This document shows, in pieces, positions 1 to 20,352 of a stretch of 37,844 nt of DNA. This stretch comes from Phycisphaerae bacterium (GTDB lineage Bacteria; Planctomycetota; Phycisphaerae; UBA1845): contig JAJDDZ010000083.1 of the NCBI GenBank assembly GCA_029260025.1, forward strand, positions 1-37,844, in the 5' to 3' direction. Below the pieces are notes generated by a model that was given only the letters and a program-made list of their open reading frames with translations, did no database searches and was not told the origin of the DNA. Every line of letters starts with the position of its first letter. The first letter of the stretch is position 1. Both the position numbers and the translations under genes were made by a program.

Positions 1-916
1 GCAGTTGATCGAGGAATACCGAGCTGGGTCGCGTAGCTGATATCGCCGGCTGAGCGAACAAGATCACGGGGCGATGGTTGTATCTCTGCCGGGTTCGCGT
101 TGTAGAAAGCATTGCCAAATATCAGCCACTGGTGCGATTGCAGCAAGGTTCGCCGATAATGGGGGTTGCCTGGTGGCCTTCAATTCGCGGATTCGTTTGG
201 GTGCGCGCCGGAACTTCGTATAGAGAATTTCAAAATGTGATGACAGATAGCACGGACTCACTTCTCGCAAGCAAACGCACGACCCAGCGTTGGCCCTCCG
301 CTCGATGGCAAGTAACCCGCAAATCTGACCATCCTGTGTGGAATACGAAGTTATCGTCGAGCAAACCGGTTGGCACATAGATTGCACAGCTTCATTCAAA
401 TATGGTTCACTTGCTTTTTGCGAGATGCTAGGCAAATTCTCAACAATGGAGCGCCTTATGTTTGAGAAAATCGCGTTCCTGGATCGCGTTTGTCTTCTCG
501 GAAACGGGGCGCATTCTTGCGACTTGCTATTGTTGAAGTTGGGAACAAACATCATGTAAGGCGCTGATCAGAGAGGGGTCTGTAGAGTTGCTGAGGGGGG
601 TAAAGATGGACAAGCCATCGTCTTATTTTCAATGGGCGCATTTTTTCTTTCTCTGCCCTTCAATGCGTTTGCTTCTGGGCCGGCGAAAGGTATCGGACGC
701 CTATCAAGATCGACGCGTATCGAGAAAGATCTCGTTATCGTACTCCGTCTCACCGACCACAGTTTCTATCGGATCAAGATGGCGCCTCAAGCCTGGCTTC
801 TTAGCAGTTTCACGAGATTTTTGTTCCGTCCTGTGGCGCGAGATGTGAGTTTTCTTGCGCCGGTTCGGTGTGATTAGTAGTTATCGAGTATGGGCTGGAG
901 GATGGAGGCTTATGGT
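1..916. other. Stretch without a recognisable gene
   Basis: Short open frames occur on both strands (the longest is a minus-strand frame over 64-555), but none has a convincing ribosome-binding site, a recognisable motif or planctomycete-like protein composition. They may be decayed genes. The last part, about 868-911, is the leader of the following octaheme gene and resembles the leader of its paralog at about 17978-18020. Confidence 0.5.
868..911 (+). promoter_or_regulatory. Leader of octaheme gene 1, conserved with that of its paralog
   Basis: The bases before this gene align with those before the paralog at 18025. Both have a GATTA-containing stretch, then GGGC, a purine-rich GGAG element, and the shared string ATGGAGGCTT. 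The GGAGG inside that string lies 8 bases before the chosen start in both genes, so it acts as ribosome-binding site and fixes the starts. No sigma-70 promoter is clear. The shared leader suggests duplication of the whole transcription unit. Confidence 0.5.
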
Positions 917-3235
917 ATGTGTTGTTTATCCTGGCTCACCGCGCGACATCGCAAAAGTTCGCAGCGCGACGAGAGTGTTCGATGCGTCAGCTCACCCTGC
1001 TTGCGGAGCATCTTTCTAGGCTTTTTTTCTCTAGCCGCAGCGGGCAGCGCAGCAGTGGCGCTTCCGGACCACGACTTCGATGATGATGGGTACGTCGGAG
1101 CTATTGACTCTGCCTATCTTTCGGCTTGTTTGTCTGTCTCCGGGCCAGGTCGAGGGCCACTGTTTGCCGAATGTGGTCTGGTTTTCGATGTCGACGACGA
1201 CAACGATGTCGATCTGGTCGATTTCGCTAGCCTGCAGCGGGCGAGAGGGCACCTTCCCATCCCACTACGAAACCTTCGAGGAGAACTGCTAACCGTAGAC
1301 TCTGTCCAACCTTTTAGTTCGCGTCAAACGTGCGGTCCATGCCATGATATCGATCACATCGCAAACGGGTTGGTTTTTCAAGAGGGCCGTACGGATGTCG
1401 ATGGCAATATTACGATGGTGGACGATTTCTACGAAGATGGTCGCTGGTGGGTCCGGGGGTCCGGAATGTATGGGCGTTGGTCTGGTGGTGGGGGAGGACT
1501 GAACAGGCAAACTGCGGGAAAAATGAACGCCCATGAGTCGGTCATGGACATGACCCCATTTTACTGGGCCGCGAACTGCGGAGGTTGTCACGCTGGCGGC
1601 GGCGGGATGGAGTTCGACCGAGATGGTGAGCTTCTCTGGGATGATGAGTTAGGGCTATTCGGGTATGAGGTATTAGGGAAAAATGCCAGTGACGTCTTGC
1701 TCGACGGCGACTACGCCTTTCTCAACGATTCGGATGCAACGGTCAGTCCGGCACGATGGGACCTAACAGGAGTCGCAGAGCCAGAGTGCCTTCACTGCCA
1801 TCGCCGAAATCGAGCGATGGATGGGCAGACTGATCTTCACCGTGAAAGACGGGCGAACGTTCTGGCAGCGATGACAGACCTGGTCGATGTAAGCGGCGAC
1901 CCTGTGCCGGCTTTCGCAAGCGCTGGAACCGGCGGGCAAGGTTGGTATTCCGTGATGGATCTCGCCGCTGACCCTCCAGTCATGCAAATCGACTACTCGG
2001 TCGGCGTGGCTGATGGTTCATTACAACTTGGGACCAGCGGGGAACTTGCCCTCTCTCCTGGTTTCCTAGTCGCACCGCCACGAGATCAGGCGTGTTGGGG
2101 CTGCCACCTGCCCGGGGGATTTCAAGGCAAGCGCGGGACCGTCTGGTTTGACGATCGGGATGTTCACTTCAAGAATTTTACGAACCGAAGTGATGATCAC
2201 CCCGGTAATGACATCGCCGACGAGCACGCAGCGACTTGCAGCGTATGTCATCCAAATGACCTGGATCATAACTTCGCCAAAGGCAACTCTCCTTATGCAC
2301 AGTTTCGAAACGATTTGGACTGGGCTGATTTCCGGTCTTGCCGAGAATGTCACCTGTACGACAGTTCCGTTCGACATCCCGATGCGCCGGAAGTGCTCGG
2401 CCCTGACGACTCGGTGGTCGTCCACCTCGCCGGCGACGGCACCAAGGGGCCTACCTCGATCTTGTCGTGCCAAGCGTGCCACGTTCCGTACCCATTGGAA
2501 CGGGCCAACCTCGTCACCGATCGCTCGCTCACCGGGACAGCCGTGACTTACATGACCGACGAATTCCTTTCAGCCAACTCACTCGACCCTATGGATGAGG
2601 ACAAGACGAAGTGGTACCCGGCGTTTCGGAAGAAAATGGATAGTGATGGCGTCGAGCGCTTCTTCCCGCAGAAAATGGAAGTCGCCATCTACTGGGCCAA
2701 TTGGGATCAGGCTGGAACTCAAGAGAATCTGACAGACGATACGATCCAGCCAGTTATCCTCTGGCGTCTTCGTCAAATCACGGGAAACAACCCGCTCCCT
2801 GAAGTTACTGATGACAACGGTGACGGTAAGCTCGAAGTGAATCGTCCCGCTGAAATCCTGGCCTATATGCAGGCGCTCAAAGGGAACGACAGCTACGGTC
2901 GTCAGGTTGCTAACAACCCTGTACTCGTGAAGGGGCGGAGAATCTGGTACGAGGACGCGACCTCACCTGATGGTGTTTCCAGTTTTAAGCATGAGGGTAC
3001 TGGCCTGCAGGTCGAGTCGTTTGAGATTTTTGGTCTCGATCACAATGTGCTTTCCGGAGGGGAAGCGTGGGGTTACAACGAGGCGCACCCTGAATTGGGT
3101 TGCTCCGACTGCCACCGGCCCGCCACCCATGATGCGCCGGTCATTGATCGATTGGTTTTGGTCGATCCGTGGGGTCCAGACGGACAGCCCGTCTACGAAA
3201 CCGTGCGAGAGATGACCGGACTAAACCCTCCATAA
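917..3235 (+). CDS. Exported octaheme c-type cytochrome with N-terminal dockerin-like EF-hand domain (paralog 1)
   Basis: This 772-residue protein probably carries out or relays a multi-electron redox reaction outside the cytoplasm; the substrate is unknown. It has a long charged N-terminus and a hydrophobic export segment (about residues 33-50). Two calcium-loop repeats follow (about 55-115; DFDDDGY and DVDDDNDVD), as in dockerin type I. Eight CxxCH heme motifs start at C139, C221, C291, C393, C441, C475, C518 and C729. None is CxxCK, so there is no tetrathionate-reductase-type lysine-ligated heme. The start at 917 was chosen over an in-frame ATG at 890 because GGAGG lies 8 bases upstream, as in the paralog at 18025. 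The paralog matches along its whole length, including the ending REMTGLNPP. A terminator follows, so the gene is probably monocistronic. Family membership (HAO-like, OTR-like or other) cannot be settled by eye. Confidence 0.85.
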   Translation: MCCLSWLTARHRKSSQRDESVRCVSSPCLRSIFLGFFSLAAAGSAAVALPDHDFDDDGYVGAIDSAYLSACLSVSGPGRGPLFAECGLVFDVDDDNDVDLVDFASLQRARGHLPIPLRNLRGELLTVDSVQPFSSRQTCGPCHDIDHIANGLVFQEGRTDVDGNITMVDDFYEDGRWWVRGSGMYGRWSGGGGGLNRQTAGKMNAHESVMDMTPFYWAANCGGCHAGGGGMEFDRDGELLWDDELGLFGYEVLGKNASDVLLDGDYAFLNDSDATVSPARWDLTGVAEPECLHCHRRNRAMDGQTDLHRERRANVLAAMTDLVDVSGDPVPAFASAGTGGQGWYSVMDLAADPPVMQIDYSVGVADGSLQLGTSGELALSPGFLVAPPRDQACWGCHLPGGFQGKRGTVWFDDRDVHFKNFTNRSDDHPGNDIADEHAATCSVCHPNDLDHNFAKGNSPYAQFRNDLDWADFRSCRECHLYDSSVRHPDAPEVLGPDDSVVVHLAGDGTKGPTSILSCQACHVPYPLERANLVTDRSLTGTAVTYMTDEFLSANSLDPMDEDKTKWYPAFRKKMDSDGVERFFPQKMEVAIYWANWDQAGTQENLTDDTIQPVILWRLRQITGNNPLPEVTDDNGDGKLEVNRPAEILAYMQALKGNDSYGRQVANNPVLVKGRRIWYEDATSPDGVSSFKHEGTGLQVESFEIFGLDHNVLSGGEAWGYNEAHPELGCSDCHRPATHDAPVIDRLVLVDPWGPDGQPVYETVREMTGLNPP

Positions 3236-3282
3236 ACTTTGATCGAATATTCGTCCGAGTTTCAGTCGATGCATGAAGATCC

Positions 3283-3315
3283 ACGCGCCGCCCGTTTCTG
3301 GGCGGCGTGTTCTTT
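3283..3315 (+). terminator. Intrinsic terminator after octaheme gene 1
   Basis: An 11-bp GC-rich stem (3283-3293 with 3300-3310, one G-T pair) closes a 6-base loop and is followed by a short T-rich run (TTCTTT). It begins 47 bases after the stop codon. The weak T tract lowers certainty about efficiency. Confidence 0.7.
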
Positions 3316-4068: not shown

Positions 4069-4758
4069 ATGTGCAAGAGGCGCTTCCTGTCCTTGGGTTT
4101 TCTTTCTGCGATTCTGGCGTGTGCTCCGGCAGCCGCCGAAATCGTTGAATTCACCTTCGAAGGTTCGATTCAATTTGTGGTCGGGAACTTCAGCGCCCCG
4201 CTCAACGGACTCGCAGCGGGCCATACCTACGAGTTCAAGGTCGCCTTCGACTCGAATACCGTCGATCAAGATGCGAGCCCGACACTGGGTCAGTACTTCG
4301 ACCCCGTCCAAACCTACGAGATCACGACGAACACGGCTGCGCTAGCGGGTGTGCCGTCCCTATCATTTATGGCGGTTGATGACGAAACCGTACCGGGTCA
4401 AGAGTCCTTCGAGGTGGGCATTGGGGTGATCGCGTTCATCCTTGGCGGACAAGTCGGGCTCCCAGCCGGGACGCTCTCATCAGACGCACTCCCGACAACG
4501 CTAGAGCTTTCGGACCTGTCCGGGTTTCAATTCACCGTGTTTGATACGCTCACTGAAGCCTCCGCGATTGGAAACCTCACGGCGTTTTCCGATGGCAGCG
4601 AGGAAGTGCCTCCGGGTGGGACGAGCGGAGAAGGTCCACAGCCTGCACCCGCGGTATCGAGTTGGGCAATGATCATCCTGACGGTACTGCTCTCGGCGGG
4701 TATTGCGATCCGGTTCGGCAAGCATCAGCGCAACGCGGCTAGCCACACGTCACCGTAA
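4069..4758 (+). CDS. Exported protein with IPTL-CTERM-like C-terminal anchor
   Basis: This 229-residue protein has a clear signal peptide (residues 1-23, ending AAA) and a soluble, Thr/Asp/Glu-rich beta-type body of unknown fold. Its tail reads PAPAVSSWAMIILTVLLSAG, then basic residues (RFGKHQR). A short proline-containing motif with S-W, a hydrophobic helix and a basic end is the layout of IPTL-CTERM/PEP-CTERM sorting signals, which are cut by exosortase-like enzymes in Gram-negative bacteria. The start ATG has GGGAG 8 bases upstream. It converges with the gene at 4800, with 41 bases between them and no clear terminator. No enzyme motif is seen; a surface or matrix role is inferred from the tail. 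Confidence 0.75.
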   Translation: MCKRRFLSLGFLSAILACAPAAAEIVEFTFEGSIQFVVGNFSAPLNGLAAGHTYEFKVAFDSNTVDQDASPTLGQYFDPVQTYEITTNTAALAGVPSLSFMAVDDETVPGQESFEVGIGVIAFILGGQVGLPAGTLSSDALPTTLELSDLSGFQFTVFDTLTEASAIGNLTAFSDGSEEVPPGGTSGEGPQPAPAVSSWAMIILTVLLSAGIAIRFGKHQRNAASHTSP

Positions 4759-4799
4759 TCCGTCCTGCGTCAAGCTGCGATCGGCTTTTGGCGTCGGAC

Positions 4800-5921
4800 C
4801 TACTCAACAAGCATCAGCGGAAGCGATGCGCACACTTTCCATAGGAGGTTCGACAGTTCGCCCGCGTCCACGGTCTTATGGAACGTCCCGCCGCCCCTGA
4901 TCAGGCTCTCTAGGAAGACAGCGTCTTCATCCGGTGTCGCAGATGTTCCTGCATAGTAGATGGAGAAAACCGAAATGCCAGCGGCGTCGGCGGCATTTGC
5001 TGACGCAACTGCTTGGGCGCGAAGGCCAGCGTCGTCCGGGACGGGGGCCCAGGCAGTCGATTGCGGCTTACCGTCGCTAACGATCACAATGGCCTTTCCA
5101 ATCTCCGGATCGCTGGTGGAGTTTTGCAGGGCGTTGATCGCAACGTCCAATCCCGCCGCGATGTCAGTTCCCGTTTTGCAAGGGAGTTTGCTTCCGCAGA
5201 ACCACCAGCAGCATGGTCCCAAGTTGTCGATTGCTGTCATCAACTGGTTGAAGCCAAATTCGAGCGACTGCAGCGGGACGGTCAGCTGCGCGGACCCCGT
5301 ATAGGTCACAAAACCCAGTTGCGACGCGTTGTCCGTGTGGTCCTTAAGGCACTGTACGAGACTTCGGTCGGCTTCCTTTGCGAGGTCCAGCGTGTCGGTA
5401 AACGACCCGCTCTTATCTTGGACGATCACAACATCCCACGCCTCTGCGGTTCCGAACTGGGCGGTTGCCGATGCGGAAACATCGGCATTCGTTTTGCCGA
5501 AGATCCCGGCAAAGAACAGCGGAACAGCGTTCCCTGTGCCCTCGCTTAGTCTGGCCGTGACCCTGCATGCGTCAGCAAAGGCCTCATCGTCGCCAGTTAG
5601 CTTGGTGAATACTCGCGTGTTCGGGTCCCATGAGCCCAATTCAACGTCGTTGCTTTTTATGTCAGTGGCTCCGGCCGCCGTATCGTTGAGATTCCCGAAA
5701 GATTTCGCTCGTGTCACGACCTCGCCGGGGCTCACCACGATTGCGCTCGCGCCGGCGAGCGCCGCGGAATCGACGGTTCGTTGCAAGTCACCCCTGACGT
5801 TATAGAGGTATCCAACGTCGACCGTCAGTGCCGCGAAGCCGACGACGGCGACGATGGTGATCGCAACGAGAACAGCAACGGTCGCGCGTCGTCTGTTATA
5901 AAGAGTTGTTTTCGGTGACAT
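4800..5921 (-). CDS. TadG-like membrane-anchored von Willebrand factor A protein
   Basis: This 373-residue protein starts with basic residues, then one transmembrane segment (about 11-32), and then the DVGYLYNVRGDLQRTVDSAALAGA pattern (quoted in part) of TadE/TadG-type Flp-pilus assembly proteins. A von Willebrand factor A domain follows (about 160-373). Its metal-ion site is visible as DKSGS (about 166-170), a downstream T in GTD, and SDG. The start at 5921 was chosen over an upstream in-frame start at 5963 because a GGGGGAG element precedes it. A loop with CCWWFCGSKLPC (about 237-248) sits just before the threonine of the metal site and is unusual. No other tad genes are nearby. The likely role is an outer-surface adhesion or pilus-associated protein. 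Confidence 0.8.
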   Translation of the reverse strand: MSPKTTLYNRRRATVAVLVAITIVAVVGFAALTVDVGYLYNVRGDLQRTVDSAALAGASAIVVSPGEVVTRAKSFGNLNDTAAGATDIKSNDVELGSWDPNTRVFTKLTGDDEAFADACRVTARLSEGTGNAVPLFFAGIFGKTNADVSASATAQFGTAEAWDVVIVQDKSGSFTDTLDLAKEADRSLVQCLKDHTDNASQLGFVTYTGSAQLTVPLQSLEFGFNQLMTAIDNLGPCCWWFCGSKLPCKTGTDIAAGLDVAINALQNSTSDPEIGKAIVIVSDGKPQSTAWAPVPDDAGLRAQAVASANAADAAGISVFSIYYAGTSATPDEDAVFLESLIRGGGTFHKTVDAGELSNLLWKVCASLPLMLVE

Positions 5922-6613
5922 GTTCTTTCTCCCCCCCACCCCGGAATGACTAGGACGCGTCATAATCCCATAGTGCCAGATACAGAGTAAGTTTCATGTT
6001 AAACCGCGGCAACCGAGACTTGCGACGCGAGCCTGCTGGAGATGATCCAGGCCAGTATATGCTCCATCCACGAAGGCCCGAGAAACAATACAATGTGTCG
6101 TTGTGCGGACACAGGCGGCGATGTGACGCTTTCGCCGCAATTACCGGGCGGCAATGTTTGCGGCCGGATAACACGAATTGTATCTTGAACATGAGAAAAC
6201 CTCGCAATGCTATTTGCCAAGAAGTTTTGGACTCTTCTGTACGAACCATCGTCACCTAAGAATGTTGCGGTCTCATAATTCTTGAAGTTGGACTCGACAC
6301 AGATATGTCAACGAGCAAAGTTGGTCATCGTTTAGTAAGAGGCCAATGTGCCGCGAGTCTCTATGCAGTATTGGCGTTTCTGAGAAGCAACACTTACCAG
6401 ATTTGATCTACGATGCGGCGTCTATGTAAGCGGCATGTAAGATTGACACGTCGTTGATCGGTTCACTTCCATCCGAGCCTCGCGAGCGGCTAGCTTTGCG
6501 GACTAGAGTTTCACTGGGATTCGAACCCCCGTAGTGTCCAAAAACTCGCCCGAACGTCGGTGATTACTTTGCAAGGTATTACAACCGACGAATTAGCGTG
6601 CTAGAATTTGGCC
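5922..6613. other. Intergenic stretch with insertion-sequence remnant upstream region
   Basis: No gene is recognised. It contains segments 6226-6251 and 6416-6445, which match 3339-3365 and 3522-3550 and probably belong to the same decayed insertion sequence. A degenerate tRNA T-arm-like string near 6513-6534 (minus orientation) does not pair properly. Confidence 0.5.
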
Positions 6614-6773
6614 ATGAACCCAATTCAATCATGGCAGCTTCTTCTCTTGGCCGTTGCTGGCTGGATGAACCGGCATCAACGAGACGTCATCGACTAATTC
6701 CGGGAGGAGAACTCGGTTCTTAAGCCCAAGTCCCAATGCAAGCGGATTCGATTCATGGACGATGAGCGCCGTG
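6614..6773 (+). pseudogene. Decayed integrase-core transposase N-terminus (copy 2)
   Basis: Translation from 6614 gives MNPIQSWQLLLLAVAGWM, NRHQRDVID, a TAA stop at 6695, and then in the same frame FREENSVLK and KRIRFMDDERR. This matches the N-terminal coiled region (DVI-Y-REEN-VLK, then KR-RF-DDERR) that I know from planctomycete integrase-core transposases. The TAA sits where a tyrosine codon is expected. The frame loses similarity after about 6773 and no catalytic domain follows. It is a truncated remnant, related to copy 1 at 3679. Confidence 0.65.
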
Positions 6774-6972
6774 CTATTCGTGCAGACATTTTGGATTTTT
6801 GTGCGCGAGTCCTCGTCGCTCTGCCGTTCGTTTGAAGTAGTCCGTTGGCGAATCCAGTGTCATCGAGTCTTTAAGGCCAGCGTAGCGCCACCGAAGCACA
6901 TTCCAAAACCGCCCATCTTCGCGCTTGAAACGCCGTTCTTGACGCCATAGTGCCGGATTGAGATGATGACCT
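6774..6972. other. Short spacer between transposase remnant and tRNA fragment
   Basis: No gene or 5' tRNA half is visible. The bases where the 5' acceptor strand and D-arm of tRNA-Val should lie (about 6947-6972) do not pair with the 3' half. Confidence 0.4.
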
Positions 6973-7019
6973 CCTGCCTTACACGCAGGGGGTCACAGGT
7001 TCGAGTCCTGTGTTGCCCA
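6973..7019 (+). pseudogene. 3' half of tRNA-Val (anticodon TAC), possible attachment site
   Basis: The anticodon arm is perfect: stem 6973-6977 with 6985-6989, loop CTTACAC, anticodon TAC. It is followed by a 5-base variable loop and a perfect T-arm (stem 6995-6999 with 7007-7011, loop TTCGAGT). The 3' acceptor strand GTTGCCC and discriminator A are at 7012-7019. The 5' acceptor strand (GGGCAAC expected) and D-arm are absent. Site-specific integrases that target tRNA genes commonly leave a 3'-half duplicate at the far end of an island, so this looks like such an att remnant. It is unlikely to yield a working tRNA. Confidence 0.65.
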
Positions 7020-7319
7020 GTTTCGTAAGCCCCATACACGCCAGAGACTTTCAACCCCCTTGGCCGCTCCATTCGATCGCGCTACACTCCCCCCCAAAAA
7101 CCGTTTTGACACGCAATTGACACCCAGACAACGCCCGTTGGTTTCAATCCAGCACACGCATCAGGAACGTCATAGGCGGGGAGCGGAATTCCAGATCGAT
7201 TTCCGTGTATTGTCGTTCCGCCTCCTTTGAACTCCGAGGACAGCATAGCAGCTTTGAGGGCAACGCTTTGCGAATAAGCGAGCGTAGCGCAAGAATCGCT
7301 GAGCCACTACGACGATTTA
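7020..7319. other. Stretch without a gene downstream of the tRNA fragment
   Basis: No open frame with a recognisable product and no clear terminator were seen. A C-run and a repeated GACAC string (about 7090-7130) are the only notable composition. Confidence 0.4.
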
Positions 7320-8993
7320 TTACTTGAATGAACTCGTGAATAGGTTCTGGAACGAAGCAAAATCGCGTAGGTCTGCATGCCCATTGGCATCGAAGTCGAA
7401 TGGGCTACATGCTCCTTCCAAAGGTGCCGCTGGTCCAATCGCACACACGGCGAACTCGACGAGCTCCACAAGGTCAATATCGCCGTCCGAATCCCAATCA
7501 CCTGTCCACACATGCAAGGTCACGTCATCAATTTCGTTCGTTGTAGGGATCGTTGCGAGCAGCATCTCGTTCATCGATCGATCCAGATAATTTCGGAACA
7601 CACTGTCCGGATTGCCGGGGTCTTGCTTGGTGCTCCAGGTGCTCGGCTCGTAACCGTTGGCGATGATTTGTGGGATCAAAATGTTGTGCGCAGCCCACAT
7701 GTCCAGTGCGACGGGGTCGGTTGAGGCGGCGAGTTGATTTGTGAAGCTTGCGTTATCATACCAAGCGGCTGGCCCGAAACCGGGGCGAGCGAGAATCCAT
7801 ATTGCGTCGAGAATCGTCAGGTCGGGCATTCGTACGTCAGCGAGGATCGTTCCCATTCCTCCGCGACCGACGCCGTTGTGCGAATCGGTGCTGAGCTGTC
7901 GGGTGACGACCCCCATGAAGTTCTTGACACTTGCAGTTATGCCGTAAATTGCATGCGTCTTGAGAACCGGCATGTTGATCACGGCGAGTTTCTTAATGTC
8001 ATAGAGCGCAAGATCCGGATCCCATACGCCGTACTTGTAGCTGATGAACGTTCCGTGAACGGTTTGAAACTTCGGATAAGACGTGCGGATGCTCGTTTGG
8101 GGATCGAGTGATGTCCCGACTACATATCCGTCCCGGTGGTCGCCCAAATCGTACTCCACCACGGGGATCTCATTGATTCCGTCCCAAAGGCGTGCCGAGA
8201 CGCGCCAACCTTCATCGGCGAAGTCGGCGACAACATCGGTAATGGATTGAGTTACATCTTCGGCGTTGCTGTCCGCTCTATCGAGATAGCCATACCCCTG
8301 CCCGTTGTCGGCGACTACGATTTCGCCGACGAATCCGTCTGGATGCTCGACGATATTTCGTATGACGCCGCGTACGACATCTGTGTTTGTTCCGCCTCGT
8401 TCGGGCCATTGCGCGTTGATCTTTAAGAGCACGACCCCATCCGTTTCGATGAGCCCTTCTGGTCCTGAGGTTAGGTTTGTCCCTGTCGACCTGTGCAACT
8501 TGAACCCCTTGACTCCCATCAGTGTTACAAGATCGTCCACGCCGCCGAACGTATGGGGATTTGCGCCTCGCGCTTGGCGAACGAAATAGAGGTCTGGGTG
8601 ATGACCTTGAGGGGGAGACATTCGCTGCACTACTGGTTCGAGGTCGAAGGATGCCGAGGCCCAGAGAGCAAGAATCAACGAGCCACACAGTCCGCCGATA
8701 AGTTTTCCCCAACGAGATCGCAATCGCTTCACCGCGCCAGCGCGAGAAGCGATTATCAGCACTACAAATGGTCCAGCAAAGGTTGTCAGCGCCAAGGCGA
8801 GTGCCGACTGCTGGCAGGGGTAACTTACACGACTTGGTTTCGTTCCTGTACGAAAAAGCACCCAGAGGAGGGCGGCGAATCCGAGGAGGATTCCCCAGAT
8901 GCCTCGGCGGTGACTGCGAGGGCGCGGACTCGCCCCACGGCACTGGCCCGGGGGCTTCTTTCGGCAAGACTTCTTGTGTGTATCGTGGTCCAT
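7320..8993 (-). CDS. Membrane-anchored DUF362 protein with C-terminal dockerin-like domain
   Basis: This 557-residue protein has a basic N-terminus and three hydrophobic segments (about 31-50, 65-88 and 97-115). A DUF362-type domain follows (about 130-470), with the pattern GVVLLKIN, VINMPVLKTHAIYGIT, SVKNFMGVV and DPVALDMWAA. Its end has paired calcium loops (DWDSDGDID, DFDANGHAD; about 500-553), as in dockerin type I. DUF362 domains are linked to ferredoxin-like and radical-SAM contexts, but the reaction is not established. Start and stop overlap the ridA-like gene upstream (ATGA, 4 bases), so the two are translationally coupled. A membrane-tethered domain acting outside the cytoplasm is inferred from the anchor and dockerin. 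Confidence 0.75.
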   Translation of the reverse strand: MDHDTHKKSCRKKPPGQCRGASPRPRSHRRGIWGILLGFAALLWVLFRTGTKPSRVSYPCQQSALALALTTFAGPFVVLIIASRAGAVKRLRSRWGKLIGGLCGSLILALWASASFDLEPVVQRMSPPQGHHPDLYFVRQARGANPHTFGGVDDLVTLMGVKGFKLHRSTGTNLTSGPEGLIETDGVVLLKINAQWPERGGTNTDVVRGVIRNIVEHPDGFVGEIVVADNGQGYGYLDRADSNAEDVTQSITDVVADFADEGWRVSARLWDGINEIPVVEYDLGDHRDGYVVGTSLDPQTSIRTSYPKFQTVHGTFISYKYGVWDPDLALYDIKKLAVINMPVLKTHAIYGITASVKNFMGVVTRQLSTDSHNGVGRGGMGTILADVRMPDLTILDAIWILARPGFGPAAWYDNASFTNQLAASTDPVALDMWAAHNILIPQIIANGYEPSTWSTKQDPGNPDSVFRNYLDRSMNEMLLATIPTTNEIDDVTLHVWTGDWDSDGDIDLVELVEFAVCAIGPAAPLEGACSPFDFDANGHADLRDFASFQNLFTSSFK

Positions 8994-9457
8994 CAGGCGC
9001 GACTCTTTGGGATCATGGCGATCGCCTCGATTTCAACGAGCAGCTCTGGGCGGCAGAGTGTTGCCTGAATGCAAGTGCTTGCAGGAAGGGGGTCTAGATG
9101 GTTCTCCTCGTAAAACGCATTGCGCACATCGTTGAATGTGTCGTAGTTCTCGAAATCGACGAGGTAGCACGTCGTGCGGATGATATCATGCCAATCTGCG
9201 CCTTCGCTCTCCAGCAGAGACGCGATGTTGGTGAACGCGCGTCGCGTCTGTGCCCGAACGTCTCCTGGGTGAATTGATTGGCCGTTCTGGTCGACGCTTG
9301 CCGTACCCGAGATGAATATCATCACGCAGTTGTCTAGCTCGACTCGCATTCCTCGCGAAAACGCAACCTTCCGCGGGTAATCGTATGCTTCGTTCAATGT
9401 GGATGGACTTTGAATAGAGGACTTATCAATGCGAACTTTGTGGCCTGATTGAATCAT
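8993..9457 (-). CDS. ridA: RidA/YjgF-family protein
   Basis: This 154-residue protein belongs to the RidA (YjgF/YER057c/UK114) superfamily. Typical members hydrolyse reactive enamine/imine intermediates. Visible marks are ISGTASVDQNG near the middle, the DIIRTTCYLVD strand-helix region, and the ending that contains CIQATLCRPELLVEIEAIA, where the conserved arginine binds the substrate carboxylate. The family core is about 125-130 residues; the rest is an N-terminal extension. GGAG lies 6 bases before the ATG at 9457; ATG 9460 and TTG 9467-9469 are alternatives. It overlaps the DUF362 gene by 4 bases. Which substrate it handles is unknown. Confidence 0.8.
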   Translation of the reverse strand: MIQSGHKVRIDKSSIQSPSTLNEAYDYPRKVAFSRGMRVELDNCVMIFISGTASVDQNGQSIHPGDVRAQTRRAFTNIASLLESEGADWHDIIRTTCYLVDFENYDTFNDVRNAFYEENHLDPLPASTCIQATLCRPELLVEIEAIAMIPKSRA

Positions 9458-9679
9458 CATGTTCTCCAAGAGCTACCGTTTGTTGTACCCTTCCGAGTAG
9501 GCGCGGATACCCCTGACACCCACTGAACAATTTTCGAGCAATCCCTGTGCCAAGGCGCACAGTCCGGACTTCTGCGCTGAGTTATTGCTGTAAATGCCCA
9601 TAACCTGTCGATCTGAGACCCGGGTTGGGTTCGGTGTGGGTTTGGTCCGGATCTTGCTCGGAGAGAGAGCGGTATTGGA

Positions 9680-11005
9680 ATGCAGCATCAACGAAAGGCC
9701 ACAATTCGAGTCGAAGACTATCGGTCGTCGCTCATGTTCGGGCGTGGGCTTGTGGTCGCGGTATGTGTTGGCTTGGCTGTGGTGGTCGTTGTTGGTGCTT
9801 GCCGCCAGCAAACTCCGTCGTCTCTCGCAGACGTTTCGCCAAAGGGCAGACCAGCTGGGACGGGAGAAGGGCTTGTAATCGCAACGCAAGTTCCCGTTAG
9901 CGGAGCGGATAGCAGATGTCGCATTGTCACCGTCGGTGAACAAGACCGGGCAATCATCTCTGTATTGACTGAGGGGTTTGCTGTGGCAGCGAGTCCTGAC
10001 CTCTCGTTCGATGGCGAGCGATTTCTTTTTGTCGGCAGCCGAGGTGAGGAAGATCCGCAGTCGATTTGGGAGATGCGTATCGACGGTTCGGGTCTTCGAT
10101 TGGTTACAACATGTCCGGGCGGGTGCGCCGAGGCGATCTATCTGTCCACTATCTACACGATCGACATGCTGGCACCGGTCGATCAAATCGCGTTCGTCAC
10201 GCTGTCTTCGGTGGAAATACCTTCGGAGATTTTTACATGTCGTCTCGATGGGTCTAGGGCTCGGCGAATTACATTCACGGCGAACGGCGCGAGTGATCCT
10301 TTCCTTTTGGATGACGGGAGGCTTCTTTTTACGATGCAGGTGTCGCCCTCAAACGACGAAACCGGAAACACGGACTGTCTGGAGGCAGCACTCTTTACGG
10401 TGAACACAGACGGGACCGACGTTTTTCCGTTTTTAGGATTGCATCGCCGTTCTGGTGCGCGACCTCACACAATACAAGTCGACGACCCCGATTGGCGGAC
10501 TCTGAACGCGAAACGAATCGCGTCACGAGATAGACCGCCGGGTCGTGCGAGTGTTGTAGATCGAGACGATGCGCCGGCACAACTTTATTGCCTGAACGCT
10601 TACATGACCGGTCTTCGAGGTCGGAGCGAAAATGACAAAACGATCAATAAGGTCCGGTTTTATTCGCGAGGGGGATCAAGCGAAGTTCAATCGAGAACCA
10701 TGCCAAGGTTACTCGGGGAAGCGCCGGTCGAGTCTGACGGATCCTTTTTTGTCGAGCTACCGTCCGGGATTCCGATTCAACTCGAAACCATCGGGAGCAA
10801 CGGTCAATCAATCAATCGCATGCGTAGTTACTTCTGGGTCATGCCTGGAGAACGACGTGGCTGCATTGGCTGTCATGAAGATCGTGCCCTGACACCGCCT
10901 AACCGCCACGTCTTCGCCCTGCGGCGCCCCCCAACTCGCATCACCAGCGATTGTCTTGATCCTGAGAAGCGCAAGTCGCCTCAAACCCCTGGAGGCAGGC
11001 CGTGA
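9680..11005 (+). CDS. Lipoprotein with propeller and hydrazine-synthase-alpha-type heme domain
   Basis: This 441-residue protein has an export segment ending in a lipobox (VGAC, Cys41). A TolB/WD-like propeller spans about residues 75-260. The following domain matches the hydrazine synthase alpha middle domain: LGEAPVESDGSFFVELPSG, then RMRSYFWVMPGERRGCIGCH. One CxxCH heme motif is present (CIGCH). In Kuenenia hydrazine synthase alpha, as I recall its structure, the equivalent heme is ligated by a tyrosine four residues after the His and a second heme follows. Here that position is Ala and the protein ends about 60 residues later, so the second heme domain is missing. Its stop overlaps the GTG start of the next gene, indicating a two-protein unit. 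Homologs with this domain occur in many non-anammox planctomycetes; hydrazine synthesis must not be assumed. Start uncertain (ATG 9680 or 9734). Confidence 0.75.
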   Translation: MQHQRKATIRVEDYRSSLMFGRGLVVAVCVGLAVVVVVGACRQQTPSSLADVSPKGRPAGTGEGLVIATQVPVSGADSRCRIVTVGEQDRAIISVLTEGFAVAASPDLSFDGERFLFVGSRGEEDPQSIWEMRIDGSGLRLVTTCPGGCAEAIYLSTIYTIDMLAPVDQIAFVTLSSVEIPSEIFTCRLDGSRARRITFTANGASDPFLLDDGRLLFTMQVSPSNDETGNTDCLEAALFTVNTDGTDVFPFLGLHRRSGARPHTIQVDDPDWRTLNAKRIASRDRPPGRASVVDRDDAPAQLYCLNAYMTGLRGRSENDKTINKVRFYSRGGSSEVQSRTMPRLLGEAPVESDGSFFVELPSGIPIQLETIGSNGQSINRMRSYFWVMPGERRGCIGCHEDRALTPPNRHVFALRRPPTRITSDCLDPEKRKSPQTPGGRP

Positions 11006-13407
11006 ATGTTGCGATAGGGTTGTTTTTAGCTGCACTCATCGCACAAGGGGCGTCGGAGCAAGATGTCCATCCGCGATATGTAGGCCAAGAAGTTTGCCTC
11101 ACCTGTCATAGCGCGGGCCGGAACTCCGAATGGCAAGATTCTTCGCATCAATCCTCCCCCTGCACCACAAAGGATCTCTTGGCACACAATCGCAGCTACG
11201 CCGCCCTGCAAAAAAGCGAGGCGCGACACATCGCCGCACTTAGCGGGTTGCGTGCCGATGTGGAAAACAGTCTCATCTGCCTTGCGTGCCACGCGACCGG
11301 CGCCGATGACGGGCGACGCTGGGCAGTTCCTTCATTCGACATAACAGATGGTGTTCAGTGCGAAGCGTGTCACGGGGCGGGGAGTTTTCACGTCGAAGCA
11401 TTTCGCACTAGCCGCAGCGCTCAGCCGATCAAGCCATCGCTACACATTCGTTCGGGAAGTCGCGAGGATTGCAAGCGATGTCACATCGAACGACCCTCTC
11501 ACGATCGTGTCTTGAAGGACGGGTTCCGACTTTCACCCATCGACCATGACTACAAGACGCCCGTCAATCTAGCTATCTCGCCTGATGGATCGAAATTGTT
11601 CGTCGTCTGTGAGCGTAGCGAAAGTGTCATCGTCATTGATCTCGCCACCCATGAGAAAGTCGCCGAGGTGAATGTAGGCGCGAGGCCTCACGATATCGCT
11701 TTTTCCGGCGATGGTGGTTTCGCGTACGTCACGAATAGAACGGACGCAAGCGTCAGCGTCATAAAGACTAACGGGATGAAGGTGATCCGAACGATTAGCG
11801 TTGGACATGAACCGCACGGGATCGTCTATGATCCACAGGCTGATCGACTTATTGTGCTTAATACGTCTGACAACACGGTCTCACTTTACAGCGTAATGGA
11901 AGAAAGAATGGAGGCGGTTCTCTCCGGAGGAGAAGGTCCATGGTCCGCGGCGCTTGATTCCAAGAACGGGCGCACCGTCCTGACAAGCGTTCGCCCAAGC
12001 CTAGGAAACTTTCGTGACCCGCCCGTTAGTGAACTAACTGTGATCGACAATGCGACGGGGCACGTGGTTGTTCGGGCGAATGTTCCTGGCGCCAATATGC
12101 TTCAGGGGATTGCTTCGATTCCCGGTGCGGACGCGGTGCTATTTACGCTGGTGAGATCGAAGAACCTGATTCCAACGAGTCGTCTTGCTCAGGGATGGGT
12201 GATTACCAACGGACTGGGTGTTTACCATTTTGACGGTCGCGTCGATCAGGTTTTGCTCGATCAACCGGCAAGCTATTTCTCCGACCCAACCGACGTGGCG
12301 GTTAGTCCGGACGGTCGGCGAGCCGTCGTCGTTAGCGGCGGTGGGGACGAAGTTGCGATTGTTGATGTAGAAGCATTGCTCGAACTCCTCCGCAGCTCGG
12401 CCGAGTATGAGCGCGAGCACATTCTTCCGAATCATCTCGGCATGAGCAGCCATTTTGTTCTTCGCCGTGTTCCGGTCGGAAGGAACCCCCGCGCCGTCGC
12501 GTTCTCAGCTGACGGCAATGTCGCCTACGTAGCGAACGCGCTCGACGACACCGTGACAACTCTCCGTGCGCCGGACTTTGTGATGGAATCAACCATAGAG
12601 CTAGGCGGTCCAGATTTAGTCACACACCTACGCCGAGGCGAACGACTGTTTCATGATGCTTCGGTTACATATGGCAAACAGTTTTCCTGCCGAAGCTGCC
12701 ATCCGGATGGACATATCAACGGTTTGACTTTTGACATCGAGGCGGATGGAATCGGCCTCCATCCGGTGGACAACCGGACGCTTCAAAGCATTTTCGACAC
12801 GCCGCCATTCAAATGGGAGGGGACCAATCCGACGCTGCATCGGCAGTGCGGACCGAGGCTCGCGGTGTTTTTCACTCGTCTTGATCCCTATGCGTCGAAC
12901 GAGCTGGATGCGTTGGTCGATTACATGTGTACGATCGAGAGGCCACCGAATCGGTATCGCCGCCGTGACGGATTGACCGATGCCCAGCGACGCGGTAAGG
13001 CGGTCTTTGAACGCGCTACGGACAATCGGGGGTTGCCGATCGCTCCCAAGAACCGATGCGTCACATGTCACTCGGGGGCCTACTTTACGACGCGAGTTCA
13101 GAGCACGGTCTCGACGAATATGTGGTTCGACGCTTACATCAACGTCGAATTGAAAGACCTATCGCAAAATGACGAATTTGGGGTCCTGGGAAATTACTAC
13201 TTTGTGGATGTTGGGTTGGCGGACAAGCTCATGGACGTTCCGCACCTTCGTAACATCGCCGACGGTAGACCGTATCTGCACAACGGGGCCGCCAATACCC
13301 TTGAGGAAATCTGGACTCGTTTCAACATGACCGATCGCCATGGGGCGACGGCTGACCTAACCCGGCAGCAGCTCAATGACCTCATCGACTATCTCAAATC
13401 GTTATGA
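11002..13407 (+). CDS. Cytochrome c554-like / YVTN propeller / MauG-like diheme fusion (hydrazine synthase beta-gamma-like)
   Basis: This 801-residue exported protein has a short signal peptide (1-18) and three parts. Residues 26-170 form a tetraheme cytochrome-c554-type domain with CxxCH at C32, C93, C120 and C157 and the typical CxxCHATG and CEACHGAG strings. Residues about 180-540 form a YVTN-type propeller (repeats such as ISPDGSKLFVV, FSADGNVAYVANALDDTV). Residues about 548-801 form a MauG/cytochrome c peroxidase-like diheme domain with CRSCH (C563), CVTCH (C686) and VPHLRN. Hydrazine synthase beta is a propeller and gamma a MauG-like diheme protein, fused in some anammox bacteria; the c554 domain is an addition here. 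GTG start with GGAGG 6 bases upstream, overlapping the previous stop. The role is inferred to be electron transfer or catalysis with the preceding lipoprotein. Confidence 0.8.
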   Translation: MNVAIGLFLAALIAQGASEQDVHPRYVGQEVCLTCHSAGRNSEWQDSSHQSSPCTTKDLLAHNRSYAALQKSEARHIAALSGLRADVENSLICLACHATGADDGRRWAVPSFDITDGVQCEACHGAGSFHVEAFRTSRSAQPIKPSLHIRSGSREDCKRCHIERPSHDRVLKDGFRLSPIDHDYKTPVNLAISPDGSKLFVVCERSESVIVIDLATHEKVAEVNVGARPHDIAFSGDGGFAYVTNRTDASVSVIKTNGMKVIRTISVGHEPHGIVYDPQADRLIVLNTSDNTVSLYSVMEERMEAVLSGGEGPWSAALDSKNGRTVLTSVRPSLGNFRDPPVSELTVIDNATGHVVVRANVPGANMLQGIASIPGADAVLFTLVRSKNLIPTSRLAQGWVITNGLGVYHFDGRVDQVLLDQPASYFSDPTDVAVSPDGRRAVVVSGGGDEVAIVDVEALLELLRSSAEYEREHILPNHLGMSSHFVLRRVPVGRNPRAVAFSADGNVAYVANALDDTVTTLRAPDFVMESTIELGGPDLVTHLRRGERLFHDASVTYGKQFSCRSCHPDGHINGLTFDIEADGIGLHPVDNRTLQSIFDTPPFKWEGTNPTLHRQCGPRLAVFFTRLDPYASNELDALVDYMCTIERPPNRYRRRDGLTDAQRRGKAVFERATDNRGLPIAPKNRCVTCHSGAYFTTRVQSTVSTNMWFDAYINVELKDLSQNDEFGVLGNYYFVDVGLADKLMDVPHLRNIADGRPYLHNGAANTLEEIWTRFNMTDRHGATADLTRQQLNDLIDYLKSL

Positions 13408-15085
13408 ATCAACTCGCAAGTCTCGCGTGATCGCTCGCGTCATTTGGGTCGTAGTTACGCATCTCTGTGCAAGCGGGGTTGTGCGGGCAGAGCCTCGCGT
13501 GCCCGTGCCCGCGCAAACTATCGAAGCTTGGCAAGCGTTTCTTCGAGCGACAGAGAAACCGCTCTTCACCGTCACAGCGATCTCGCGAGACCCTCGCACT
13601 GGAGATTTTTGGCTTGCGACATGGGGCTCGGGGCTCGTACGATACTCGGGCGGACGGTTCGACGTTTTCAATCAATTCAATAGCGGTCTTGCAGGCGATC
13701 TTGTCTTCGATGTTTGCGTCCATGACGGACTGGTCTGGGCAGCCACGATTGGTGGCGTGAGCGCATACGCACATTCAACCGACGATTGGAAGCTCCATTT
13801 CCCGCGTCAGAGGTCTTTCGGCGGACCGGTTTATACGAGAGTCAAGCGGGTCGATGGCGAACTGAGGGTCGCTACCACTGATGGCTTGGCGGCTGTCTTC
13901 GATGCCGAAGATGATCGCTGGAACGAAGGGTTTCTGCCGGCCCTCAAGTTTGCAGCTGTAGGTCTCACGGGATTTCCTGCCTCGCGCGGCGCACCCAGCA
14001 GGCAGGCGGCGATCGCCGTCTACGGGCCACGAAACAGGATGATACACCTACCGGGCCCTGAGGTACTCGAAGACCGACTCGACCTTTCAACCGTCGAATG
14101 CGCGGTGGAGATGGCCAACGACGCAGCCCCGGACCATGAAGGCAAGATCGATCTTCTCAAGGCGTCATCTGGCTACGATCGCTATGGTTGGACGCTGCCG
14201 GAAGACGATGTCGTTCTCTTTTCACTGAACCCTAGCATTGGCGGCATTGTGGGGCATCTTGCACCGACAACTGATCCAGTGCTCTATGAAGTTGTCGCGC
14301 GAACCGGAATCCCATTTGTATCGACCGCTCGTCTGGATCGGGAAAATCGAGAAAGACTTCTTGCGACACCAAACGCGTTCCAGTGTCTGGGCAACCTAAA
14401 GCGTGCCCACCGGATGTTAGCGAACGACCTGGTCGATTCGAATTCCGGGAAACGAATCGCCATCGTCATGAGTGGATCCGAGCCTGGTGACGTTCGTCTA
14501 CGGTGGTGGCGCGATCTCGCTGCGAAGCGAGGAGTGACGATTATTGGCTGGTCTCCGGAGTCGAAACTAGCCTTGCCCGTAGACTTGGTCGTAACGTGGA
14601 CAGATGCGGAGTCGTCGGTCCGCATCGTAGAACAGGTTCGAGGGGCAGGAATCCATTGTCCTATCGTCGTTAGTGATGACTGCCTTCGCGATGATCTGGC
14701 TTCACTTGCGAGTGTTCCACTTGGTGAACTGGTGACATTGAACGAAGAGGCGTTAGGGGCTGCGCCGTTTGATGAAGATTTTGCAGTAAAATTTGAACGC
14801 ACTCATGCTCGCCATCGAATTTTGCCCGGTCGCACTTCGTATGATGGACAACAAACGTTCGATGGGGTTGACCATCTTCTGAGTGCTGTCCGTAAGGCGA
14901 ATTCGAAACACCATCGCGTCGAGGAGGTCTTAGCGGAAATGCGAGATAGCGCGTACGGAGAAGCACATTTTGATGACAAGCACACTACGACCACCGTTCC
15001 CATAGCGAGGTTCATCAACGAGAGTTGGTTGCCTCGAGAAATCAGAAATGCGGAGAGGCGAGAGCGAGTCATTTCGCACGAATGA
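13376..15085 (+). CDS. Exported fusion of regulator-type propeller and periplasmic ligand-binding domain
   Basis: This protein of up to 569 residues has a hydrophobic export segment (about 18-38, ending VVRA). The N-terminal half (about 55-190) has repeats like those of two-component-regulator propellers (AISRDPRTGDFWLATWGSGL, GLVWAATIGGVSAY). The C-terminal half (about 215-520) resembles type I periplasmic ligand-binding proteins of branched-chain amino acid/amide transporters. Examples are the GIVGHLAPTTDPV, KRIAIVMSGSEPG and CPIVVSDDC segments. No membrane, kinase or transporter gene is adjacent, so it may sense or bind a ligand for the cytochrome proteins encoded just upstream. It overlaps the upstream gene by 32 bases if ATG 13376 is used. 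GTG 13427 would remove the overlap; neither has a good ribosome-binding site. Confidence 0.65.
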   Translation: MTSSTISNRYESTRKSRVIARVIWVVVTHLCASGVVRAEPRVPVPAQTIEAWQAFLRATEKPLFTVTAISRDPRTGDFWLATWGSGLVRYSGGRFDVFNQFNSGLAGDLVFDVCVHDGLVWAATIGGVSAYAHSTDDWKLHFPRQRSFGGPVYTRVKRVDGELRVATTDGLAAVFDAEDDRWNEGFLPALKFAAVGLTGFPASRGAPSRQAAIAVYGPRNRMIHLPGPEVLEDRLDLSTVECAVEMANDAAPDHEGKIDLLKASSGYDRYGWTLPEDDVVLFSLNPSIGGIVGHLAPTTDPVLYEVVARTGIPFVSTARLDRENRERLLATPNAFQCLGNLKRAHRMLANDLVDSNSGKRIAIVMSGSEPGDVRLRWWRDLAAKRGVTIIGWSPESKLALPVDLVVTWTDAESSVRIVEQVRGAGIHCPIVVSDDCLRDDLASLASVPLGELVTLNEEALGAAPFDEDFAVKFERTHARHRILPGRTSYDGQQTFDGVDHLLSAVRKANSKHHRVEEVLAEMRDSAYGEAHFDDKHTTTTVPIARFINESWLPREIRNAERRERVISHE

Positions 15086-18024: not shown

Positions 18025-20352
18025 ATGCGCTGCTCACCGAAGATTCACGGTTTGAAACAGTTCCCAAACTCCTGTCCTCAAGACGATAAGATCCTTGCGC
18101 GGATGACTGGGCGCGCGCATCTGATATCCGCTTGCGCTCTGCTCTTCATACTCGCTACGTCGCCACAGGCGGCGGTCGCGCAGACAGAATACGACTTTGA
18201 CAATGACGGATACGTCGGCGTCGTCGACTTCTCCTATCTCACCGCCTGCCTGTCATTCTCGGGTCCCGATCGAACACCACTATTCGGCGAGTGCGTGCCC
18301 ATATTTGACAGCGACGCCGACCACGACATTGATCTTGTAGACATCGCAGCGATGCAGCGAGTTCGGGGACACTTGCCGATCCCATTGCGGAATAAGCTGG
18401 GAGACGTGCTGACGATGGTCGAGACAGCGCCGTATAGCGGGCGACAAACTTGCGCGGGTAACTGCCACGCTCACGCCATCGACCATATCACCAATGGGCT
18501 CCACTTCCAGCAGGGTCGCACAGACATTGACGGTCATCTCGACATGCGCGACGACATATTCGAAGATGGTCGGCCATGGCATTTCAGCCGCGGGCGGTAC
18601 GGCCGGTGGTTCAATGGGTTGGAGATGACCAGCAAGGACAACACCAACGAGTCGGAATTCGGAATCACTACGTTCATGTGGGTACGGGACTGCATGGGGT
18701 GTCATCCCGGGAGCGGTCCGGGCGAATTCGACCGCGACGGAGAGTGGCTTTACAAGTATTACGAGGATACTGAGCAGTTTCAGTTCGGGTTTGAGCGTTT
18801 GAATAAGACGGCCAACGAGGTCTTGTTTGACGGTGATTACACTCGCCTGGACATGGTCACCGGCGAGGTCACACCGGCTCCGTGGGATGTATCCGGCTTG
18901 GCGGGGCCAGACTGTTTGATGTGCCATCGTGCGGACAGGGTCGTCACTAACGGCGAAACGATGAACCATACTTGGCGTGCAGCTACGATGGCGGCCGGGG
19001 AGAATCTCGTCGATGATCAAGGTGCATCGGTCCCCGCGTTTGCTGCCGCCGGTACCGCAGGACAAGGCTGGTTTTCCAGTCTCGTTTACGAGAACCAAGT
19101 AGCCAGCACGCTTCAAATTGACTACGCCACAGGCGTTTCCAACGGGAGTCTGATTGCAGATGAGGGTCACGGAGGCGCTCTAAGCCTTTCACCTAGCTCT
19201 TTGACAGAGAAAGCGGCGGATCAAGTCTGCGCACGCTGTCACTTTCAGACGATACAGTTTGCGGGGGTTTGGTTTGATACGCGCGACGTCCACTATTCAA
19301 AATTCAACAACCTCAGCGACGACGATCCCCAAAACGACATCCCGCCTGAAAAATCTACCACGTGCAATTTCTGTCATCCAGGTGACGTGAGCCACAACTT
19401 CGCAAAGGGAAACAGTCCGACTAGATTCTGGCGAGATGAACTTGATTGGGCACCACCGTTCAGATCGTGTAGAGAGTGTCACCTCGCCGATAGCGTCACG
19501 CGACATCCGGATGCGCCTGAAGTTCCAGGTCAGGATTACATTCCCGCCCACGACGGTGTGATGATTGAACGACTCTCATGCCAGACCTGCCATATTCCAT
19601 ATGGGGTCATGCCTTATACCGCCGTTTTCGATTCAACTGTCACGGGGAGTTTTGGATTCACTCCGGCCAGGCTCTTTTATTCGGCGGACCCTCTCGACCC
19701 TACAAACGATGACAAGAGTCGTTGGTATCCACCATTTGTTTTTAAGACTGACAGTGACGGCGTCGAGCGACTGTTTCCGGGCGGGACCGTTCCCACCGTC
19801 TACTGGGGAGATTGGAACCAGAACGGGACACCGGAGAATCTGCAAGATGACACAATCTCTCCTGTCATAACCTGGCGGATGCGGCAGCTCACCGGGGGGG
19901 CGCCCCTTGCGGGCGTGACGGACGACAATGGAGATGGGGTCCTGGAGGTAAACCGGCCTTCCGAAATCCTCTCGTATATCCAGCTACTCAAAGGCAACGA
20001 TAGTCATGGACGGCAAGTGGCTGCCAATCCTGTGCTGGTCAAAGGAAAGCGCGTTTGGTACGAGGATGCTACGTCTCCGAACCTTATCAGTTCCTTCGAG
20101 CACGTCGGCAAGGGGATTGCCATGGAGGATTGGTCACCCTATGTGTATGGGATTGACCATAACGTCCTTGTGAAGGAAGAGGCGTGGGGGTTTGGCGATA
20201 TTCACCCGGAGTCGGGATGCCAGGATTGCCACAGCCCTGATACTCACACATCCCCAGTTTTTGACCGTCTCGTGCTCGTGGATCCTTGCGACGAGAATGG
20301 CCAGCCGGTGTACCAGACGGTGCGTGAGATGACTGGTCTGAATCCGCCGTAG
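18025..20352 (+). CDS. Exported octaheme c-type cytochrome with N-terminal dockerin-like EF-hand domain (paralog 2)
   Basis: This 775-residue protein has the same plan as the protein at 917-3235. It has a charged N-terminus, an export segment (about 33-53, ending AVAQ), two calcium loops (DFDNDGYVG, DSDADHDID; about 55-110) and eight heme motifs. The first motif is non-standard: C143-AGN-C-H, that is CX3CH, where paralog 1 has CGPCH. The other seven are CxxCH at C223, C297, C402, C447, C482, C519 and C732. Blocks such as NFAKGNSP, RHPDAPEV, YEDATSP and REMTGLNPP are shared with paralog 1. The enzyme class is unknown. It is the last gene of the rightward cytochrome locus and faces the leftward aromatic-acid operon; no clear terminator was found. 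Confidence 0.85.
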   Translation: MRCSPKIHGLKQFPNSCPQDDKILARMTGRAHLISACALLFILATSPQAAVAQTEYDFDNDGYVGVVDFSYLTACLSFSGPDRTPLFGECVPIFDSDADHDIDLVDIAAMQRVRGHLPIPLRNKLGDVLTMVETAPYSGRQTCAGNCHAHAIDHITNGLHFQQGRTDIDGHLDMRDDIFEDGRPWHFSRGRYGRWFNGLEMTSKDNTNESEFGITTFMWVRDCMGCHPGSGPGEFDRDGEWLYKYYEDTEQFQFGFERLNKTANEVLFDGDYTRLDMVTGEVTPAPWDVSGLAGPDCLMCHRADRVVTNGETMNHTWRAATMAAGENLVDDQGASVPAFAAAGTAGQGWFSSLVYENQVASTLQIDYATGVSNGSLIADEGHGGALSLSPSSLTEKAADQVCARCHFQTIQFAGVWFDTRDVHYSKFNNLSDDDPQNDIPPEKSTTCNFCHPGDVSHNFAKGNSPTRFWRDELDWAPPFRSCRECHLADSVTRHPDAPEVPGQDYIPAHDGVMIERLSCQTCHIPYGVMPYTAVFDSTVTGSFGFTPARLFYSADPLDPTNDDKSRWYPPFVFKTDSDGVERLFPGGTVPTVYWGDWNQNGTPENLQDDTISPVITWRMRQLTGGAPLAGVTDDNGDGVLEVNRPSEILSYIQLLKGNDSHGRQVAANPVLVKGKRVWYEDATSPNLISSFEHVGKGIAMEDWSPYVYGIDHNVLVKEEAWGFGDIHPESGCQDCHSPDTHTSPVFDRLVLVDPCDENGQPVYQTVREMTGLNPP

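Follow-up and report, generated by a model that had tools for sequence, protein, structure and literature searches.

Hydrazine synthase (HZS) is the signature enzyme of anammox and, to our knowledge, was long considered to be without relatives. Its homologues decide two questions, namely whether anammox exists outside the Brocadiia and what the ancestral chemistry of the enzyme was, and the published claims about them are in conflict. Suarez 2023 (PMC10732223) reported hzs-like genes in the planctomycete lineage UBA1845 and proposed new anammox bacteria; a 2024 study of Phycisphaerae (PMC11266412) could not confirm hzs genes, and Hagglund 2025 (PMC12758564) described clades I-IV of HZS homologues and argued against hydrazine synthesis. 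Gene sets of the kind discussed here are already published. One of them lies on contig JAJDDZ010000083.1 of a Phycisphaerae bacterium of UBA1845 (assembly GCA_029260025.1), whose whole length of 37,844 nt is referred to as the window. Do its genes encode a hydrazine synthase or another enzyme of the same descent? With moderate confidence we answer that they encode a multiheme oxidoreductase complex, located outside the cytoplasm and belonging to the HZS superfamily, which probably is not a hydrazine synthase. This answer is built on homology, domain order, heme count, residue changes and gene association.

Relationship to the three subunits of hydrazine synthase

An earlier note on this DNA had described two overlapping genes with relatives of all three HZS subunits in a non-standard architecture. 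Coordinates and frames are borne out (Table 1): an HzsA-like gene (alpha) precedes a fused gene (beta-gamma), and the alpha stop and the beta-gamma start overlap by 4 bp (GTGA). The alpha protein matches the Pfam model HZS_alpha (PF18582) at 7.9e-21 (74.9 bits, cut-off 26.6) and the crystal structure of HzsA (chain 5c2v_A) at 6.7e-15, the latter match spanning the propeller and the heme domain. A generic beta-propeller of the TolB type was ruled out. A profile of 30 family sequences finds HzsA at 1.9e-91 and TolB next at 7e-6, 85 orders of magnitude behind, and the predicted alpha fold has 5c2v_A on top (Z 19.7 over 359 residues, root-mean-square deviation 3.5), ahead of TolB (Z 13.7 over about 195 residues). 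The grouping with unrelated propellers that the earlier note had allowed for is thus not what we found. In the beta-gamma protein, the match to 5c2v_B covers the whole propeller and is joined by that to 5c2v_C. With matches far beyond chance, the two genes are genuinely, though distantly, related to all three HZS subunits, whose homologues are encoded together at this locus. The NCBIfam cut-offs for hydrazine synthase are not reached by either protein (alpha 62.1 of 800 bits, beta-gamma 177.5 of 1250 bits).

The earlier note had recognized the propeller and the diheme domain of beta-gamma correctly and overlooked a tetraheme cytochrome c554-like domain in front of them. This domain follows a signal-like stretch at the N-terminus and carries CxxCH motifs at residues 32, 93, 120 and 157; together with the gamma pair, CRSCH at aa 563 (gamma-I-like) and CVTCH at aa 686 (gamma-II-like), it makes the protein a hexaheme cytochrome. 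The gamma domain also holds His760. Alpha has a single CxxCH and lacks the C-terminal domain of heme alpha-II, as the earlier note had seen. Its lipobox (VGAC, Cys41) suggests that it is probably a lipoprotein; no lipobox was seen in the majority of relatives, for which the starts had been assigned mechanically. The source genome (4.13 Mb in 393 contigs; completeness 88.7%) contains one HZS_alpha gene, and claims of gene absence are restricted by the draft state of this and the other genomes.

The YVTN propeller and binding-protein pairing had given rise to the idea of a link to pyrroloquinoline quinone (PQQ) dehydrogenases. It was dropped, as the NCBIfam PQQ-associated propeller model stayed far under its cut-off (87 of 287 bits) and no PQQ-associated binding-protein model matched.

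Catalytic residues and phylogenetic position

Residues were compared in an alignment with three anammox sequences, whose numbering agrees with the published residues; their roles are taken from PMC12607021 and PMC12758564. In HZS, Tyr591 (with Ser590) is the ligand of heme alpha-I, and Asp168 of gamma is the proposed proton donor. Compared with the three anammox HzsA, the window alpha and the displayed relatives have a two-residue gap after CHEDR in place of Ser590/Tyr591. The beta-gamma tables comprise 88 non-anammox homologues, 16 of them in the six-heme group of the window. Here, Asp168 is replaced by Leu620 (Leu in 15 of the 16), the Glu/Gln of the beta tunnel loop by Trp399, and gamma His144 by Trp605, a position that corresponds to the tryptophan of MauG and cytochrome c peroxidase (CCP) and is Trp in 86/88 homologues. 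Cys165 is retained as Cys616, without exception in the six-heme group (16/16), and both gamma heme motifs, Cys165 and the second gamma-II His are kept in nearly all 88 homologues, which argues for selection on the gamma-I site. Loss of the proton donor, together with Trp in the tunnel loop and at the MauG/CCP position, points to a different substrate or direction.

In a tree of 91 beta-gamma sequences, the window and 15 other six-heme proteins form one clade (support of 100 in the SH-like approximate likelihood ratio test, SH-aLRT). It adjoins a large ten-heme clade of Planctomycetota, Acidobacteriota, Verrucomicrobiota and others, and the anammox proteins stand apart from it with support 100. 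The tree was built by a quick method and contains flagged long branches, so the order of its deep branches is unsure.

Because the catalytic residues are replaced and the proteins fall in one clade far from anammox, the UBA1845 proteins, as judged from these comparisons, belong to the superfamily and probably do not form a hydrazine synthase. This is in line with the different reaction that the earlier note had suggested. The proposal of Suarez 2023, according to which UBA1845 of the Phycisphaerae is a new anammox lineage with a genuine hydrazine synthase, could draw on the homologues of all three subunits, on the retained gamma Cys165 and on an octaheme protein of the hydroxylamine oxidoreductase (HAO) family in the same genome. 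We consider it most improbable, since alpha Ser590/Tyr591, gamma His144 and Asp168 and the beta-loop Glu/Gln are all replaced, the NCBIfam scores stay far under their cut-offs, the clade is separate, and the 2024 Phycisphaerae study and Hagglund 2025 speak against it. Moreover, the only HAO-family protein found in the source genome is closest to 4qo5, which ranks above the HAO and hydrazine dehydrogenase chains. The source planctomycete is therefore probably not an anammox bacterium. Our residue comparison agrees with Hagglund 2025, extends to the very lineage behind the anammox claim, and weakens that claim.

Two further readings start from the gamma domain. It matches the MbnH-family model at 1.4e-11 and CCP_MauG weakly, and peroxidase chains are among its matches in the Protein Data Bank (PDB); in family models and PDB chains alike, it is nearer to HzsC than to MauG or MbnH. 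According to the first reading, the diheme domain is a maturase like MauG or MbnH, which oxidizes residues of a partner (alpha, FG-GAP or binding protein) to form a cofactor, without turnover of a small molecule. The MbnH match, the Trp at the MauG/CCP position and the constancy of the protein partners are consistent with it; we regard it as unlikely, because the kinship to HzsC is closer and because the HzsB loop, the heme of alpha and the counterpart of Cys165 are all retained, although a maturase could do without them. According to the second, alpha is a mere anchor, and H2O2 reduction or electron transfer across the envelope is the task of the c554 and diheme parts. Most relatives carry eight c554-type hemes, in accordance with such a conduit, and the CCP_MauG and peroxidase matches would fit a peroxidase. 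Nevertheless, this reading is distinctly unlikely, as it offers no reason for the conservation of the binding proteins and a Rid-family gene (see below) along with the HzsB loop and the heme domain of alpha.

The compact UBA1845 unit and its gene neighborhood

The unit extends beyond the gene pair described in the earlier note, which was right about the pair and missed both a third gene and a divergent Rid-family gene (Table 1). The third gene shares 32 bp with beta-gamma, and all three frames are open in the window.

Table 1. Features of the locus in window coordinates.
Feature	Position	Strand	Remarks
HzsA-like gene (alpha, gene 1)	9680..11005	+	441 aa; propeller, HZS_alpha middle domain, one c-type heme
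Heme alpha-I-like motif CIGCH	10862..10876	+	aa 395-399 of alpha; alignment with three anammox HzsA
c554-HzsB-HzsC-like fusion gene (beta-gamma, gene 2)	11002..13407	+	801 aa; hexaheme; GTG start
Tetraheme cytochrome c554-like domain, N-terminal in beta-gamma	11062..11541	+	PF13435 2.1e-10; c554 chain 1bvb 5.6e-4
HzsB-like propeller with HzsB tunnel loop	11545..12573	+	5c2v_B 1e-35 over aa 182-523; NF052340 141 bits
HzsC/MauG-like diheme domain	12628..13404	+	5c2v_C 1.1e-20; residue tables
Third gene of the unit, fusion of regulator-type propeller and type I periplasmic-binding domain	13376..15085	+	Peripla_BP_6 9.5e-7; alignment with 13 relatives
Rid-family (RidA-like) gene, divergent from alpha	8993..9469	-	PF01042 2.2e-25
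Octaheme cytochrome with dockerin-like stretch	18025..20352	+	near the unit in some relatives only
Octaheme cytochrome with dockerin-like stretch, paralogue of the preceding	890..3235	+	57% identity between both

A comparison of 80 loci reveals two arrangements. In the ten-heme type, the order is alpha, FG-GAP/CRTAC1, beta-gamma, propeller, binding protein, binding protein, and the binding proteins are of the leucine/amide class; in the UBA1845 type, it is alpha (one heme), beta-gamma (six hemes), and a fusion of propeller and binding protein, modules which are separate genes in the ten-heme relatives. In most UBA1845 relatives, alpha lies immediately 5' of beta-gamma; the two are one gene apart in the ten-heme relatives, where most loci have the FG-GAP/CRTAC1 gene in between; this gene is absent from that place in the window and the other UBA1845 six-heme loci. 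The UBA1845 loci thus represent a compact variant of their own, with a shorter alpha, four fewer c554 hemes, no intervening CRTAC1 and two genes fused. No permease family recurs among the neighbors in these loci. The recurrent families f5 and f7 turned out to be artefacts of antisense reading of the propeller/binding-protein and FG-GAP genes. At another six-heme locus (L076 of genome G018), about positions 1-7500, three heme-rich cytochromes (13 or more, 19 and 11 CxxCH) directly precede the unit, possibly as an extracellular electron conduit.

A Rid-family gene lies within about 9 kb of beta-gamma at 23 of 75 loci from several phyla, a count that takes in some longer two-domain Rid/chorismatase-like proteins. 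For co-occurrence, beta-gamma was accepted up to E 1e-60 and the Rid-family gene up to E 1e-20. Among 100 genomes of the order, 25 have beta-gamma, 24 the Rid-family gene and 22 both (p=8e-17, relatedness ignored); among 391 genomes of the phylum, own genome excluded, the counts are 13, 12 and 9 (p 3e-13, likewise ignoring relatedness). Each of the genera g1, g3, g4 and g24 holds genomes with both genes and a genome with neither. In several genomes (e.g., G047, G033, G025, G039), the two genes lie far from each other or on separate contigs. The Rid-family gene hence tracks beta-gamma across genomes even when unlinked. Seven genomes (G004, G012, G013, G017, G024, G031, G041) have a second, two-heme beta-gamma paralogue of 34-37% identity, mostly with the Rid-family gene in its vicinity, and in some of the unlinked cases (e.g., G004, G012, G013, G024, G031) the Rid gene stands beside this paralogue. 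At four loci (L118, L149, L162, L174), a longer chorismatase-like protein with Rid-type domains takes the place of the partner. A DAHP synthase-like protein, recognized by eye and representing the first step of the aromatic pathway, is encoded near the unit at L137, L146, L158, L166 and L173; in three of these (L146, L158, L166), its gene stands immediately between alpha and the Rid-family gene. The compact UBA1845 variant and the Rid-family association are new in this analysis; the Rid family is not mentioned in the main text of Suarez 2023 (PMC10732223) or Hagglund 2025 (PMC12758564).

The earlier note had placed the two flanking octaheme cytochromes in a class that includes hydrazine dehydrogenase. 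This link is not upheld: neither protein has a Pfam (PF13447) or NCBIfam HAO match, and a profile search of solved structures returned no HAO or hydrazine dehydrogenase chain. An alignment by hhalign with the HAO-like proteins encoded in this family of genomes reached only 112 columns at 61% probability; taken together, the family, profile and hhalign searches detect no relationship to hydrazine dehydrogenase. Similarity to octaheme tetrathionate-reductase-type cytochromes is weak (17-21 bits, cut-off 375), and the structure model (predicted local distance difference test, pLDDT, 45.6) was too poor for a fold comparison. Paralogues were found by this search in 11 of 100 relatives, some of them without an HZS-like unit, and adjoin the alpha/beta-gamma pair in few. 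Members of this family (L183-L199) have a first heme motif of variable length (CX2CH, CX3CH or CX4CH), and in G013 and G018 very long proteins result from the fusion of tandem copies.

Elsewhere in the window, all on the minus strand, a DUF362 protein with a C-terminal repeat (7320-8993) adjoins the unit here and in five further UBA1845 loci (L102, L103, L104, L112, L113), and a Tad-type pilus assembly protein with a von Willebrand A domain lies at 4800-5963. The region 21118-33605 comprises a 2-oxoacid:ferredoxin oxidoreductase cluster at 21-28 kb and a molybdenum hydroxylase cluster of the xanthine/CO dehydrogenase type with XdhC at 28.7-33.6 kb.

Proposed function and comparison with known systems

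Complex formation, the path and direction of electrons, the tunnel and the substrate are modeled here on HZS. The HzsA-like protein, a probable lipoprotein, would pair with the c554-HzsB-HzsC fusion protein. Electrons would travel, in either direction, between the fused tetraheme c554 wire with the bis-His gamma-II-like heme and the open gamma-I-like heme with its three cysteines, where a small substrate would be reduced or oxidized. The product may then follow the HzsB-like propeller to the heme of the HzsA-like protein, where a second step would take place. The third-gene product, a propeller with a binding-protein module, might dock or present the ligand. The leucine/amide-type binding proteins and the Rid-family partner suggest, tentatively, a small nitrogen compound of the amine, imine or hydroxylamine type as substrate, and are the first concrete handles on it. 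We further raise, as a conjecture of limited probability, that UBA1845 and the ten-heme relatives of several phyla share an undescribed extracytoplasmic system, consisting of an HZS-type core with two heme sites, binding proteins and a dedicated Rid partner, which transforms such a compound, and that hydrazine synthase arose from a system of this kind through residue swaps around the two hemes and the tunnel. The UBA1845 relatives would thereby hint at the evolutionary origin of hydrazine synthase. Since ten-heme relatives are present in genomes named after the cultured genera Aquisphaera and Thermogutta, genetic testing is conceivable.

Some observations weigh against this proposal. The Rid-family protein lacks the catalytic Arg of RidA (PASTC versus PARSC in the alignment with 1qu9 YjgF) and has no evident signal peptide, so that a role as imine deaminase is, on present sequence evidence, unproven. 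In addition, the window alpha is about 80 propeller residues shorter (around aa 262-268) than that of the same-genus relative L102 and others, with its frame intact, which may reflect a real deletion or an assembly fault. Together with the short propeller of the third gene, apparent in the alignment with 13 relatives, this gap could indicate a decaying copy that is no longer functional. Given the three open overlapping frames, the intact heme motifs and conserved residues, and the 67% identity of beta-gamma to its same-genus relative, we consider decay very unlikely and retain the reading as an oxidoreductase complex of the HZS superfamily.

With anammox HzsABC (5c2v; HzsBC is fused in Scalindua), the unit shares three recognizable subunits with a beta-gamma fusion, the gamma diheme with Cys165, the HzsB loop and the heme alpha-I motif. 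It differs in its reversed gene order, the extra tetraheme c554 domain, the missing heme alpha-II, the replacement of Ser590/Tyr591, His144, Asp168 and the loop Glu/Gln, its separate clade, and the possession of a third gene and a Rid-family partner. With MauG, MbnH and bacterial cytochrome c peroxidase, it has two c-type hemes and the Trp at the His144 position in common; the similarity is weaker than to HzsC, and these proteins have no such propeller or alpha partner. We know of no third-cysteine heme link in any of them.

The genes reported by Suarez 2023 (PMC10732223) belong to the same family, with alpha immediately 5' of the fused beta-gamma; the metagenome-assembled genomes OFTM174, 5, 250, 285, 321 and 371 of that study carry the relatives L104, L108, L112, L110, L111 and L113, respectively. 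In contrast to our reading, anammox is proposed there, and a search of the text gave no mention of catalytic residues, the Rid family or binding proteins. The unit also agrees with the homologues of Hagglund 2025 (PMC12758564), in which Ser590/Tyr591 are missing, His144 is replaced by Trp, Cys165 is kept (clade I), and alpha lies upstream of a c554-containing beta-gamma; O. terrae, like the window, combines four hemes at the N-terminus with the lack of heme alpha-II. UBA1845 is not named in that paper, and the window differs by six hemes instead of ten, by the lack of FG-GAP/CRTAC1 between alpha and beta-gamma, and by the fusion of propeller and binding protein.

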